Under the pieces are notes generated by a model. That model made no database searches. It was not told the origin of the DNA and saw nothing but the letters and a program-made list of their open reading frames with translations. A program made the translations under genes and the position numbers. From positions 2,666,001 to 2,730,000 of the forward strand of contig NZ_JAMZDZ010000001.1 in the NCBI RefSeq assembly GCF_024172085.1: DNA of 64,000 nucleotides. Direction: 5' to 3'. This document shows positions 56,834-62,118 of this stretch, one piece after another. The first letter of the stretch is position 1. Each line of letters begins with the position of its first letter. Source of the DNA: Hamadaea flava. GTDB lineage: Bacteria > Actinomycetota > Actinomycetes > Mycobacteriales > Micromonosporaceae.

Positions 56834-56913
56834 TCAGTCCCTTACGGAGTTGATCAGGGCGCCGTGGACACGACACACCGGTCGATCACGCACATAGGTT
56901 CATGATCGCGCGG
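56830..56913 (-). repeat. 84-bp dispersed intergenic repeat, copy B
   Basis: Inverted relative to copy A at 16696-16779, about 86% identical by hand count. It overlaps the stop of the small frame and the last 14 bases of the MMPL gene, and keeps the hairpin-forming TGATCA pair. Confidence 0.8.
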
Positions 56914-59125
56914 AAACAGAGGGGGTGGTGGTGGACGGGGAGGCGGGGGAAGTGGCGGTGAGGGCGGCGAGTTTTTCGCCTTCGACGTCCACGTTGGGCA
57001 GGATCTTGTTCAGCCAGCGCGGCAGCCACCACGCGGCCTTGCCCAGCAGCGACATCAGCGCCGGGATGATGGTCATCCGGACCACGAACGCGTCGACCAG
57101 CACGCCGAACGCCAGCGCGAAGCCGATGGACTGGATGAGCGTCTCGCTGGAGAAGACGAACCCGCCGAAGACGCTGATCATGATGATCGCGGCCGCGGTG
57201 ACGACCCGGGCGCCGTGCCGGAAGCCGGTCACGATCGCCCCGCGGGCCGACGCCCCGTGGACGTAGTCCTCTCGCATCCGGGTCACGAGGAACACCTGAT
57301 AGTCCATCGCGAGTCCGAACAGGATGCCGATCAGCAGCACCGGCAGCATGCTCATGATCGGTCCGGTCTCCTCGACGCCGAAGACCGAGCTGAGCCAGCC
57401 CCACTGGTAGACGGCCACGACCGCGCCGAAGGTCGCCGCGACGCTGAGCAGGAAGCCCAGGGTGGCGGTCAACGGCACCAGGATGGATCGGAAGACGAGC
57501 AGGAGCAGCAGGAACGCCAGTCCGACGACGACGCACAGGTACGGCACGAGCGCTTCGCCGAGGCGAGCCGAGACGTCGATGGCCAGCGCCGTCTGGCCGG
57601 TCACCGACACGGTGGCGCCGGTGGCGGCCTTCAGGTCGCCGGCTTGGTCGCGGATCGCGGTCACCAGGTCGGCCGTCTTCTCGTCGTTCGGTCCGGTCTT
57701 CGGGATCACGGCCAGCAGCGCCGTGTGGCCGTCCGGGCTCACGCCGGTCGGTGAGGCGTACAGGACGTTGTCGACCTTCATCAACGCGCCGGCCAGGGTC
57801 GCCGAGGTGGTCTGCGGGTCGCTGCCCGTGGGCAGCTCGGCCACGATCACCAGCGGCCCGTTGAAGCCAGGGCCGAAGCCTTCGGACATCAAGTCGTACG
57901 CCTTACGCTGCGTGGTCGACGAGGCCTGCATGCCGTCGTCGGGCAGCCCGAGCCGCAGGCTCGCCGCCGGAACCGCGAGCGCGGCGAGCCCGGCGACCGC
58001 GAGGATGAGCGCGGGTACCCGGAAGCGGACGATGAACTTCGCCCAGCGCTCGCCCATCGGCGTCGAACCAGCCTCGTCCGACTCTGGGTCCGGCGTACGC
58101 CGGCCGAACAGCCGCCCACGCACGAGCCGGGTGCCGGTGAACCCGAGCAGCGCCGGGAGCAGCGTGATCGCGACCAGCACCGAGACTGCGACGGTCGCGG
58201 CGGCGGCCAGACCCATGCTGCGCAGCAGCGGGATGCCGACGACCGAGAGCGCGGCCAGCGCGATGATCACGGTCAGGCCGGCGAAGACGACGGCGGATCC
58301 GGCGGTGCCGACCGCACGGCCGGCGGCTTCCGGGCCGTTCTTGCGTACCAGCAGCTCATGCCGGAAGCGGGAGACGATGAACAGGGAGTAGTCGATGCCG
58401 ACCGCGAGGCCCAGCATGAGCGCGAGGATCAGGCTGTTGGAGTTGATGTCGAACCAGCGGGCGGCCAGCGCGATGCCCGAGATGCCGACGCCGATGCCGG
58501 TGAGGGCGGTGAGCAGTGGCAACCCGGCCGCGATCAGCGAGCCCAGGGTGACGACGAGCACGACGGCGGCGATGACGATGCCGAGCACTTCGACGATGCC
58601 GGTCTCCGGGTTGGCGCGCAGGGCGTCACCGCCCACCTCGACGGTCAACCCTTGATCCCGGCCGAGCTGGGCGGCGTCGAACAGCGCCTCCCGGTCGGAG
58701 TCGGTCAGGGCCATGCCCTGTACGCCGTAGGTGACCTGGGCGAAGGCGTACCGCGGGTTGTCCGGCGAGATCGTCTTCGCGGTGTACGGGTCGGCCACAT
58801 TGGCGACCTGGGGCGCCTTGTTCAGGGCGGCGACCACGGCTCCCACCGCGCTCTGCACGGACGGGTCGGCGACCGTCTTGCCCTCCGGCGCGACGAAGAC
58901 GACCCGGGCGCTCGCCCCGCCGGCGTGCGCCTCGGGGAACCGTTCGCTCAACTGGTCGATCGCCTGCTGCGATTCGGTGCCCGGAATACTGAAGTCGTTA
59001 CTGGTCTTGCCGGCGAAGAGGGCGGCCCCGGCGCCCGCGAGGGCGAGGAACACCACCCAGACCGCCAACACGAGCCACCGTCGGGCGTACGCGAACCGGC
59101 CGATTCGATAGAGGAACGTTGCCAT
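56900..59125 (-). CDS. MMPL/RND-family membrane transporter
   Basis: A 741-residue protein with two MMPL domains: helix 1 near the N-terminus, an external domain (about 45-185), five helices with GLAVGIDYSLFIVSRFRHE, a cytoplasmic stretch, then a second external domain and helices with GLAMDYQVFLVTRMREDYVHG. The paired GxxxDY motifs are the proton-relay signature of this family. It probably exports a lipid or drug. ATG 59125 follows GGAG. Four palindromic operators and a divergent TetR gene lie upstream. Confidence 0.9.
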   Translation of the reverse strand: MATFLYRIGRFAYARRWLVLAVWVVFLALAGAGAALFAGKTSNDFSIPGTESQQAIDQLSERFPEAHAGGASARVVFVAPEGKTVADPSVQSAVGAVVAALNKAPQVANVADPYTAKTISPDNPRYAFAQVTYGVQGMALTDSDREALFDAAQLGRDQGLTVEVGGDALRANPETGIVEVLGIVIAAVVLVVTLGSLIAAGLPLLTALTGIGVGISGIALAARWFDINSNSLILALMLGLAVGIDYSLFIVSRFRHELLVRKNGPEAAGRAVGTAGSAVVFAGLTVIIALAALSVVGIPLLRSMGLAAAATVAVSVLVAITLLPALLGFTGTRLVRGRLFGRRTPDPESDEAGSTPMGERWAKFIVRFRVPALILAVAGLAALAVPAASLRLGLPDDGMQASSTTQRKAYDLMSEGFGPGFNGPLVIVAELPTGSDPQTTSATLAGALMKVDNVLYASPTGVSPDGHTALLAVIPKTGPNDEKTADLVTAIRDQAGDLKAATGATVSVTGQTALAIDVSARLGEALVPYLCVVVGLAFLLLLLVFRSILVPLTATLGFLLSVAATFGAVVAVYQWGWLSSVFGVEETGPIMSMLPVLLIGILFGLAMDYQVFLVTRMREDYVHGASARGAIVTGFRHGARVVTAAAIIMISVFGGFVFSSETLIQSIGFALAFGVLVDAFVVRMTIIPALMSLLGKAAWWLPRWLNKILPNVDVEGEKLAALTATSPASPSTTTPSVSARS

Positions 59126-59217
59126 CGGAGCACTCCAATATAAGAGGTAGGCAGCCGTCATCACGACGAAACACGCAGTTCACGGTGGGTGAAAAGCGCT
59201 CGCCTCTGCTCCTCAAA

Positions 59218-59359: not shown

Positions 59360-59941
59360 GTGACGGGATTGGCGGAGGCCGGACCGCGGGGTCAGGAGCG
59401 CACCCGGCAACGCCTGCTGGACGAGGCGTGTCGGCTGTTCGCCCTGTACAGCTTCGCCGGGACGTCGCTGCAGATGATCGCCGACCACCTCGGTGTGACG
59501 AAGGCCGCTATCTACCACCACTTCAAGACGCGCGACGACATCCTCACCGCGGTGATCCAGCCCGCCATGGAGAACCTGCGCACCATCATCGAGACGGCCA
59601 AGGCGCAGCGTACGCCGTCGAGCCGGGCGGACACGATGCTGCGAGGATTCGTCGACCTGACCGTCAAACACCGCCGTCTCATCGGGATGATCGGCACCGA
59701 CCCGGGCATCACCAGCGCCCTGCAGAGCCATCCGGACATCGCCGAGCTGCTCCAGCAGCCAGGCGAGCTGCTGATGTCCGACGACTCCCCCGGCTCGGAG
59801 GTCGCCGCGACGGTGGCTCTCGCCGGGATCGCCGCCGCCGCGTCCTCCCCTGTCCTGCAACGGTTCGACGACGACGCCATGCGTGAGCAGCTGCTCGCCA
59901 CCGGTCGCCGGATCCTGGGGCTGCGCGCCCGGCGTTCCTGA
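59360..59941 (+). CDS. TetR family regulator
   Basis: A 193-residue regulator with the TetR N-terminal helix-turn-helix (QERTRQRLLDEACRLFALYS, MIADHLGVTKAAIYHHFKTR) and an alpha-helical ligand domain. GTG 59360 follows GGGAGGA. It is divergent from the MMPL exporter; the four-site array between them is the likely target for repression of both genes. Confidence 0.92.
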   Translation: MTGLAEAGPRGQERTRQRLLDEACRLFALYSFAGTSLQMIADHLGVTKAAIYHHFKTRDDILTAVIQPAMENLRTIIETAKAQRTPSSRADTMLRGFVDLTVKHRRLIGMIGTDPGITSALQSHPDIAELLQQPGELLMSDDSPGSEVAATVALAGIAAAASSPVLQRFDDDAMREQLLATGRRILGLRARRS

Positions 59942-59949
59942 CCGCAGAC

Positions 59950-59979
59950 TGCAACCCGTGACGGGGGCCTGGCCGTGTC
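59950..59979 (+). promoter_or_regulatory. candidate ECF-type promoter before the sigma-factor fusion
   Basis: TGCAACC (59950-59956), 17 bases, then CGTGTC (59974-59979). This is close to ECF promoter logic with an AAC in the -35 and CGT in the -10, so the sigma factor may drive its own gene. The -10 lies in the loop of a GCCTGG/CCAGGC hairpin, so a terminator for tetR is an alternative reading. Confidence 0.4.
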
Positions 59980-60015
59980 CCAGGCGACCCATCCCCACGA
60001 TCACGGGCGGTAGCA

Positions 60016-61860
60016 GTGGATTTCGCGGAGTTCTACCAGGCGACCTCACCCCGGACGCTGCGGTACGCGTACGGGCTGACGGGTGACCTCGCCCAGGCTC
60101 AGGACGTCGTCCAGGAGGCTTACATCCGCGCCTGGCAACGCTGGCGGCGGCTCAGCGGGTACGACGACGCCGAGGCATGGCTGCGGCTCGTGGTCTCCCG
60201 GCTCGTCTTCGACTGGTGGCGGCATCTGCGCGTACGCCGTAACGCGCCGGTCGAGTCGCCGGCCCCGGTGCCGCCGCCCTCGGAGGACACGATGCTGGTC
60301 GTGGCGGCTCTGAAGAAGCTGCCCGAACGGCAACGGCAGGCGCTCGCGCTGCACTATCTGCTCGACGTCTCCGTGGCCTCGATCGCGGCCGAGTTGCGCG
60401 TCAGCGAGGGAACCGTCAAGTCGTGGCTGTCGCGTGGCCGGGACAACCTCGCGACGGTGCTCACCGCGGAGATGTCGCAGGCCCGCATGGGCTCCGCTGC
60501 CGACGTCGCGGAACTCGGCCGCCGCCGACGGCGTACCCGGGTAGCGGCGACGGTGACCGCCGCGGGGCTGGTGGTGATCGCGGTGATCGTGCTGACGACG
60601 GCCGTGCTGGGCCGGAACCGCACGATGCCGCCGCCGCCGACGATCAATCCCACCGGCAGCCCGATGGTCTTCTCGCCCTTGCGTCGCGTGGGCTCGATGC
60701 CGCTGGACGGGCTGGCGTATCCGGAGGTCGCGGTCCAGAACGGGCGCGCCTACGTGATCGACACCGCCGCGCCGGGAGTGCGGGTGCTGGCCATGAATCT
60801 GGCCGACGGCAGCCAGGCCTGGCCGCGCGTGGATCTGCCACCCGCCGGGCCGGCGGACTCCGTTCTGGTCGGCCGGATCCTGATCACGCCACAGGTGGTC
60901 ATGGTCCTCACGGGCACCTCGACCCAAGGCGTCACGACGACCACCGCCTCCGCGATCGACCCTGCCACCGGGCAGAAACGCTGGTCCCGCACCAGTTCCG
61001 CGGAGCCTGACGACGTCCAGGTCTTTCCTGGCGTCGCTGTCTTCGCCGACCGCGCGGCCGGCACGATCGTCGGCGTCGACCTGCAGACCGGTGATACGCG
61101 CTGGCAAGTGGCCACACCGGCGCACCGGGTCTTCGGCATGACGGTCCCGGGCGACCTCGCCCGCTCGGACCTCGACACCGGCACACCCACGATGGGCAAC
61201 AGCGAGGACCAGCTGTATGTGTCAGACGGCAAGGAGACGATCACCGAGTACGCGGCGTCGACGGGCAATCCGACCGGACGCGCCTGGCACGGCATCCCGC
61301 CCAACGACGGCTTCCTGGCGTACAACGGGGACATCTACATCCGCAGCGCACGCGAGCTGTATCGGCTGCACGTCGACGACGGCAAGCTCAGCCGGGAGTA
61401 CGCCGGCGGCGGGGTGACGGCGATGTCGCCCTGCGGCCTGGCGGACATCTGCCTGATCGACGTGGCCGAATCCGGCGGCCACAACGTCGTCGCCGTCCAC
61501 GACGGCCAGGTCAAGTGGACGGTCTCGGTTCCCCGCGCGACGCGGCTGGCCCCGGTCGGGCTCGCGCTTCGGGTCGCCGGCAACGCCGCCAACGACGGCG
61601 CTGTCGTGCTCGCCACGGACGGCCGGGAGGTCCTGCGTACCAGGGAGGACAGTCGCGTGCTGCGGCTCGACGCCGGCAACCTCCTCGTCTGCGAGTGGAC
61701 CAACGAACGGTCGGTCCGGTTGTCCGGCGTACCGGCGGGGGCGCCGCAACTTGAGTCACTCGGCGGGCTCGACACTGCTCAAGGGCAGCTGGCCGCCGAG
61801 GGGACGGCGTTGGTCGCCGTCGTCGGCGGAGAGCTGGTGCTCTACTCGATGGTGGGCTGA
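60016..61860 (+). CDS. ECF sigma factor fused to membrane helix and PQQ-like beta-propeller
   Basis: A 614-residue fusion. Residues 8-75 are sigma region 2 (DLAQAQDVVQEAYIRAWQRW) and 100-150 region 4 (LPERQRQALALHYLLDVSVA then SEGTVKSWLSRGRDNL). After a basic stretch (RRRRRTR) comes a transmembrane helix (176-198), then about 400 residues of PQQ/WD-like strands (DPATGQKRWSR, DLQTGDTRWQV) that would lie outside the membrane. No zinc-finger anti-sigma gene is adjacent. The propeller may sense a signal and release sigma by proteolysis. GTG 60016 has only a weak GGGCGG upstream. Confidence 0.85.
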   Translation: MDFAEFYQATSPRTLRYAYGLTGDLAQAQDVVQEAYIRAWQRWRRLSGYDDAEAWLRLVVSRLVFDWWRHLRVRRNAPVESPAPVPPPSEDTMLVVAALKKLPERQRQALALHYLLDVSVASIAAELRVSEGTVKSWLSRGRDNLATVLTAEMSQARMGSAADVAELGRRRRRTRVAATVTAAGLVVIAVIVLTTAVLGRNRTMPPPPTINPTGSPMVFSPLRRVGSMPLDGLAYPEVAVQNGRAYVIDTAAPGVRVLAMNLADGSQAWPRVDLPPAGPADSVLVGRILITPQVVMVLTGTSTQGVTTTTASAIDPATGQKRWSRTSSAEPDDVQVFPGVAVFADRAAGTIVGVDLQTGDTRWQVATPAHRVFGMTVPGDLARSDLDTGTPTMGNSEDQLYVSDGKETITEYAASTGNPTGRAWHGIPPNDGFLAYNGDIYIRSARELYRLHVDDGKLSREYAGGGVTAMSPCGLADICLIDVAESGGHNVVAVHDGQVKWTVSVPRATRLAPVGLALRVAGNAANDGAVVLATDGREVLRTREDSRVLRLDAGNLLVCEWTNERSVRLSGVPAGAPQLESLGGLDTAQGQLAAEGTALVAVVGGELVLYSMVG

Positions 61861-61880: not shown

Positions 61881-61992
61881 CAAGATCGTCGGCTGCCGCG
61901 AATCTTGGGGGTGATAGCGCCAAGAATGGCGGCAGCCGACGATCTTCGAGGTGCGGATCGCGATGAATGGCGGCAGCCGACGATCTTCGAGG
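61881..61992. repeat. three copies of the GTCGGCTGCCG palindromic repeat
   Basis: Copy 1 (61881-61907) is a hairpin from CAAGATCGTCGGC to ATCTTG. Copies 2 and 3 (61925-61951 and 61966-61992) are identical over 27 bases with a 41-base period and include GGCAGCCGACGATCTTCGAG. The unit is shared with 43751-43895. The gap 61861-62118 holds no gene. Confidence 0.75.
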
Positions 61993-62118
61993 GTGCGAAC
62001 TCCATGATCAACGCGGCGGAGGCTTCCGATAAGCGCGTCCATGGCGCGATCTGCGGTTTTGCCGATCAAATGGGTGGGTAGCAGGCAGTATGGGAAGGAG
62101 ACGACAGAAAGGGCGACC

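Follow-up and report, generated by a model that had tools for sequence, protein, structure and literature searches.

A 2022 review describes the groups ECF48, ECF52 and ECF53 and the protein IutY as fusions of a sigma factor with an anti-sigma-like membrane part; activation by proteolysis is expected for the three groups and has been shown for IutY (PMC8999054). Here we compare these systems with a 614-aa protein of the soil actinobacterium Hamadaea flava in which ECF sigma domains, one membrane helix and a BamB-like beta-propeller occur in a single chain. The gene lies in a 64-kb stretch of DNA that was analysed as a whole and that we call the window. SCO4117 of Streptomyces coelicolor, a member of ECF52, is like the fused protein an actinobacterial ECF sigma factor that is anchored in the membrane through its C-terminal part and carries a binding domain outside the cell, and the sections that describe it propose proteolytic release and autoregulation (PMC5826349). 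The same sections give ECF52 a zinc-finger domain, a Pro-rich stretch and a carbohydrate-binding module (PMC5826349), whereas the fused protein has no cysteine before the membrane and carries a BamB-like propeller. ECF53 and ECF48 are likewise actinobacterial C-terminal fusions to membrane anti-sigma-like parts, but they have a zinc-finger domain and one or two helices, and the review's passages on them mention no propeller (PMC8999054). We rejected membership in ECF52, ECF53 or ECF48, as the zinc finger is absent, with no cytoplasmic cysteine in any of 17 fused proteins and no zinc-finger match in Pfam. A carbohydrate-binding module of the ECF52 kind was rejected as well, as only PQQ_2/BamB-type hits lie above cutoff beyond the helix.

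The sensor part of IutY is FecR-type. This Pseudomonas putida protein (ECF243) resembles ours in holding sigma factor and membrane anti-sigma in one chain, and is released by Prc and RseP (PMC8999054), but it acts in iron-starvation cell-surface signalling in a Gram-negative envelope. ECF57 shares C-terminal beta-propeller-type repeats, some of its members being WD40-extended (e.g. in Singulisphaera), and the review's account of this group proposes a protein-interaction mechanism and has two cysteines linking sigma 2 and 4 (PMC8999054). In contrast, the fused protein has no cysteine in its sigma part, and its repeat is of the PQQ_2/BamB type. Sigma-K of Bacillus subtilis is not an ECF sigma factor; it has a short N-terminal pro-sequence and no sensor domain. 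The passage describing it reports activation by intramembrane proteolysis (PMC6242693), which would be the feature shared with the sigma factor studied here. The direct two-gene homologue is a SigE-like sigma gene with a separate, overlapping membrane-propeller gene, found in genus g46 and others of the family under the same promoter motif. A search of the open-licence literature turned up no account of a membrane ECF with a propeller in Actinobacteria. The relevant parts of two Actinoplanes sigma-factor papers (PMC10733313, PMC11205660) do not describe the architecture, and those of a further review (PMC8103513) describe no sigma-membrane-propeller arrangement. The group may already be named in the main ECF classification. 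In outline, the fused protein resembles ECF52, ECF53, ECF48 and IutY but lacks the zinc finger; new relative to known fusions are (i) the propeller sensor, (ii) the absence of a zinc domain, and (iii) a natural series of fused and split forms.

Architecture and topology of the fused protein

The fused gene occupies positions 60016-61860 of the window (+ strand) and has a GTG start. Its SigE-like ECF sigma domains 2 and 4 take up residues 1-150 (60016-60465, +). Pfam places Sigma70_r2 at residues 7-71 (E 2e-11) and Sigma70_r4_2 at residues 94-144 (E 1.4e-16), with no match to region 1 or 3, the pattern that defines an ECF sigma factor, and the generic sigma70-ECF model of NCBIfam scores 76.7 bits, above its cutoff of 42.9. 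The best NCBIfam match is SigE-fam_strep (TIGR02983) at 138.2 bits, slightly below the cutoff of 141.55, and three fused relatives reach 131.1-133.5 bits against the same model; we therefore call the protein SigE-like and do not class it as a member of TIGR02983. A cytoplasmic juxtamembrane segment (about residues 147-179; 60454-60552, +), which aligns with the N-terminal segment of the separate partner described below, ends in the basic run RRRRRTR directly before the single hydrophobic helix at residues 180-198 (60553-60609, +). Membrane helices were called throughout by Kyte-Doolittle hydropathy only. The predicted extracytoplasmic BamB-like propeller extends over about residues 219-614 (60670-61857, +) and is delimited by Pfam, the structure model, the PDB fold match and cysteines; PQQ_2/BamB matches cover two stretches of it, the best being residues 341-459 (5.3e-15).

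An AlphaFold2 model built from a 40-row alignment (mean pLDDT 82.7, pTM 0.66) contains the sigma helices, a single helix at 161-199 and a strand-rich domain from 219 onward; its membrane region is of low confidence, with pLDDT <50 at 174-185 and 198-211. BamB propellers were the best PDB matches of this model in a loose superposition (TM-score by target about 0.5, rmsd 8-12), and the roughly 32-33 strands of the modelled propeller would fit eight blades. Pfam, hydropathy and the model together confirm the initial annotation, which had read one chain of sigma regions 2 and 4 followed by a basic stop, a single membrane helix and a PQQ-like propeller. The term PQQ-like is correct for the fold of the ectodomain and should not be taken to indicate PQQ binding. 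A PQQ enzyme such as a PQQ-dependent dehydrogenase was rejected, as PF01011 scores 13.4 bits against a cutoff of 26.7 and the best folds are BamB.

Charge and cysteine distribution support, without proving, the placement of the propeller outside the membrane that the same annotation had proposed. Charge is more positive before the helix than after it in 48 of 49 rows and equal in one. The cytoplasmic part is free of cysteine in 17 of 17 fused proteins, and all 17 have at least two cysteines past the helix; the first cysteine of the 614-aa protein is residue 473, in a conserved pair Cys473/Cys479. Among 32 split pairs (outgroup included), every partner has 2, 4 or 6 cysteines beyond its helix, even numbers as expected for disulphides, and 28 of the sigma proteins have no cysteine at all. 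Five of the 17 fused ectodomains, the H. flava protein among them, have three cysteines, an odd count that does not fit a simple all-disulphide picture.

Fused and split relatives

A family search gave matches at E 1e-62 or better in 76 of 250 genomes, mostly to the sigma part alone. Class-wide, one genome of 345 matched at E 1e-62, that of H. flava itself, a threshold at which more distant homologues could be missed. Hamadaea accounted for seven of the eight loci in a search for relatives of the fused protein, and three full paralogues of the fused gene are present in the H. flava genome. After duplicate removal, we examined 51 family loci (17 fused, 34 split) and three outgroup loci, leaving out rows <95 bits and rows identical over the first 150 residues; the split rows are loci returned or fetched, a subset of all family-search matches.

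The sigma part is about 58-70% identical between the 614-aa protein and the 34 unfused family loci. In all 34, a gene for a partner with an N-terminal membrane helix overlaps or adjoins the sigma gene (30 at the first hydropathy threshold; L060, L080, L084 and L087 after relaxing it), and in 25 of 30 split loci the chosen start codon of the partner lies within the sigma gene, beginning 11 nt from its end. A Hamadaea ectodomain profile, built from six fused proteins, was compared with 30 partners and 17 fused chains: it matches 25 partners (E 8.9e-20 or better) and 16 fused chains (9.6e-16 or better), six of these chains by construction. It missed the partners L058, L063 and L072, of which L058 and L063 nevertheless align. 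L077 and L079 are split partners with a different, small ectodomain (no significant profile match), and fused L045 also has a small ectodomain (0.0024); from these three loci, at least two kinds of ectodomain occur with this sigma subfamily, among split as well as fused forms.

We built a junction profile from the first 39 residues of 29 split partners. Nine of 17 fused chains match it at E 0.0053 or below, the 614-aa protein itself weakly at 0.0053; the other eight are weaker (above 0.01, two without any match), and unfused sigma controls gave nothing under 0.37. The best match (1.7e-10) is L042, with profile positions 10-39 on residues 147-176, and in the seven fused chains with alignments the profile falls between residues 143 and 176. 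Relative to the fused chains, split sigma proteins have a C-terminal tail of their own and the partners about nine extra N-terminal residues. These alignments indicate that, in the clear cases, fusion removes the tail of the sigma factor together with about nine residues of the partner, whose cytoplasmic segment is otherwise retained.

Sequence comparison thus documents the two-gene form of sigma factor and partner, the homology of fused and split ectodomains and, for several relatives, that of the juxtamembrane segment. We conclude that the 614-aa protein is almost certainly an ECF sigma factor joined to a membrane sensor partner that its relatives encode separately. The initial annotation had found no anti-sigma gene behind the fused gene, and this is borne out: the next gene is a glucose/alcohol dehydrogenase by Pfam, which extends to 63168 and whose start lies some 180-260 bp downstream, according to which start codon is chosen. 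Since homologous sigma genes have a separate membrane gene and the fused chains keep its juxtamembrane segment, an anti-sigma-like partner is probably built into the chain. An anti-sigma role of the partner is suggested by gene order, overlap and co-variation. By Pfam, no zinc finger or other known anti-sigma domain was found in the fused protein, and no recognisable anti-sigma domain in the partners L044, L068 and L079.

Every part of the fused protein is under purifying selection. Over six pairs, dN/dS was 0.06-0.12 for the sigma part (0.12 in the comparison with the orthologue L031 and 0.10 in that with L032), 0.27-0.55 for the juxtamembrane segment with the helix, and 0.22-0.44 for the ectodomain. 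Sigma and ectodomain distances are correlated (r 0.73 in 44 rows, r 0.64 in 28 split pairs, with 0 of 5000 permutations in both cases), which fits co-inheritance, though common ancestry would by itself give the same result.

The fused loci are spread over eight genomes (four from the genus of H. flava, plus G140, G020, G060 and G022), and 13 of the 17 fall in one clade spanning five genomes. In a sigma-domain tree of 54 rows, the starred branches force three changes of fused/split state. The AU test rejects a single clade of all 17 fused rows (p-AU 1.8e-8), so that we discarded this grouping and the change between split and fused state occurred more than once; a single clade of the 16 propeller fusions was not rejected (p 0.09). 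Because the three outgroup loci are split, we read the tree as at least two fusions from a presumably split ancestor. The three changes could instead be one fusion and two fissions.

We note that a similar general layout recurs elsewhere in the H. flava genome. A survey of its own sigma factors returned 30 loci among 49 matches: 20 adjoin a gene with a near-N-terminal membrane helix, six are fused and four are neither. L026 is a doubtful case among these 20, its short partner lying at a distance of 37 bp, and two or more hydrophobic stretches occur in a few of the partners. At L004, L005, L007-L017, L019-L022, L025 and L030, the ECF locus overlaps or adjoins the gene of a membrane-helix protein. 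The helix of such partners follows a short, mostly basic N-terminal tail of about 35-55 residues, and 13 overlap by 4 nt. Three more ECF sigma-membrane fusions, L006, L018 and L028 (479, 522 and 349 aa from the match start onward), have ectodomains to which no Pfam model matches. Outside sigma genes, a homologous propeller is joined to an Hsp70-like domain through a linker, a basic stretch and a membrane helix in L090-L098, from genus g4 of the same family (nine of nine loci by eye; Pfam for L097: HSP70 2.7e-23, PQQ_2 5.9e-7). Genus-g4 genomes with a match to the homologous propeller ectodomain make up 21 of 249 order-level genomes.

Promoter motif and probable autoregulation

The sequence TGCAACC-N17-CGTGTC at positions 59950-59979 (+) resembles the -35 and -10 elements of an ECF promoter and is putatively autoregulatory. 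It is the single exact match in the window, where the number of matches with two mismatches is that expected by chance (12 found, 13.5 expected). What lifts the motif beyond chance is its conservation upstream of family loci and at paralogues. The core GCAACC-N15-19-CGTGT lies within 200 bp upstream of 44 of the 51 family loci (13 of 17 fused, 31 of 34 split), with a spacer of 16 in 40 loci and of 17 in four, and is absent upstream of the three outgroup loci. The same pattern occurred in 6 of 10,200 shuffled stretches, which are single-base shuffles, many of the real upstream stretches being related to each other. Near-variants are visible by eye at some of the seven missed loci (L076, L082 and L045). 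Fused and split loci share a single conserved promoter motif.

The initial annotation had proposed autoregulation through this motif, and a promoter search of the 8.86-Mb genome lends support to the proposal. The exact form GCAACC-N16-18-CGTGTC occurs at 8 sites, against 3 for a reversed control, and three of the eight precede the three fused paralogues. With ORFs judged by composition, four of the remaining five lie inside long ORFs; the fifth, L105, coincides in part with the predicted start of a divergent ORF, and a short gene begins about 90 bp beyond its end. None of the five has a convincing target gene. In 12 further genomes we found 57 exact sites (control, 40), 13 of them at sigma loci examined and the remaining 44 about at control level. 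We rejected a large regulon using the exact motif on these grounds. With counts elsewhere at about control level, the exact motif points to the sigma genes themselves, and autoregulation of the fused sigma gene is very probable.

Proposed mechanism and rival explanations

We consider it reasonably likely, taking all parts together, that sigma factor and sensor work as one chain that is inactive while tethered, released on an outside cue and autoregulated. The sigma domains would lie at the cytoplasmic face and be kept inactive through masking by the juxtamembrane segment, exclusion from RNA polymerase, or both. A cue on the outside propeller, for which a peptide, a wall fragment or envelope damage are candidates, would bring about cleavage at the membrane helix or close to it. 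Once free, the sigma fragment could transcribe from GCAACC-N16/17-CGTGTC promoters, its own first, and newly made tethered protein would also shut the response down. The architecture suggests that an outside sensor directly controls the sigma switch; that release occurs by proteolysis rather than by a conformational change seems somewhat the likelier course. A further reading, which we offer tentatively, treats the propeller as a plug-in sensor for several outputs in this family (a sigma factor, split or fused, and, in a sister genus, an Hsp70-like ATPase), with the short tether of the fused form alone sufficient for silencing and a very small regulon centred on the sigma gene itself.

Transcription regulators of the ToxR/CadC type work while membrane-anchored. 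The sigma factor could likewise be active at the membrane, the propeller changing conformation or oligomerising and RNA polymerase being recruited without cleavage; the cytoplasmic linker from region 4 to the helix, at only about 30 residues, and the lack of a known cleavage site speak for this option. We nevertheless think it unlikely, as in the split form the sigma factor could be anchored solely through its partner, and the fused relatives treated in the review act by release, shown for IutY and proposed for ECF52 (PMC8999054). Quite improbable, to our reading, is a membrane-propeller that serves as a positive factor or as a folding or localisation module, with the sigma factor controlled mainly by its own transcription level. 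Such a role would agree with the lack of a recognisable anti-sigma domain in the fused protein and in L044, L068 and L079, and with an exact motif that is above chance only at the sigma genes' own promoters, but it sits poorly with the recurrence of the joined form and with the membrane-helix genes that adjoin 20 of 30 own-genome sigma loci in the usual position of an anti-sigma gene. An assembly artefact or a decaying gene pair can be dismissed, given 17 distinct fused loci in eight genomes and dN/dS <1 in every part over six pairs.

Fused and split sigma-sensor pairs under one promoter provide a natural series on the question whether co-encoded membrane proteins that lack a known anti-sigma domain have anti-sigma activity. 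As 20 of the 30 sigma loci examined in this genome share the general layout, the answer could give a working principle for much of ECF signalling in these actinobacteria, and the fused form provides an envelope sensor in a single gene, together with a defined reporter promoter.

Beside the sigma gene lie a gene for an MMPL-family transporter (56900-59164, -) and one for a divergent TetR regulator (59360-59941, +). The MMPL gene also adjoins the Hamadaea orthologues L031 and L032, a TetR gene is listed for L032, and the paralogues seen are flanked by other genes. We rejected an operon that would join the sigma gene to TetR/MMPL upstream or to the dehydrogenase downstream, as the neighbours differ at those paralogues; for the TetR gene, the promoter motif moreover sits between it and the sigma gene. 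Right after the stop codon, at positions 61882-61999, GCGGCAGCCGACGATCTT occurs three times, in both inverted and direct orientation. This sequence has only five exact copies in the whole genome, and the repeats are possibly a terminator or a small local repeat.
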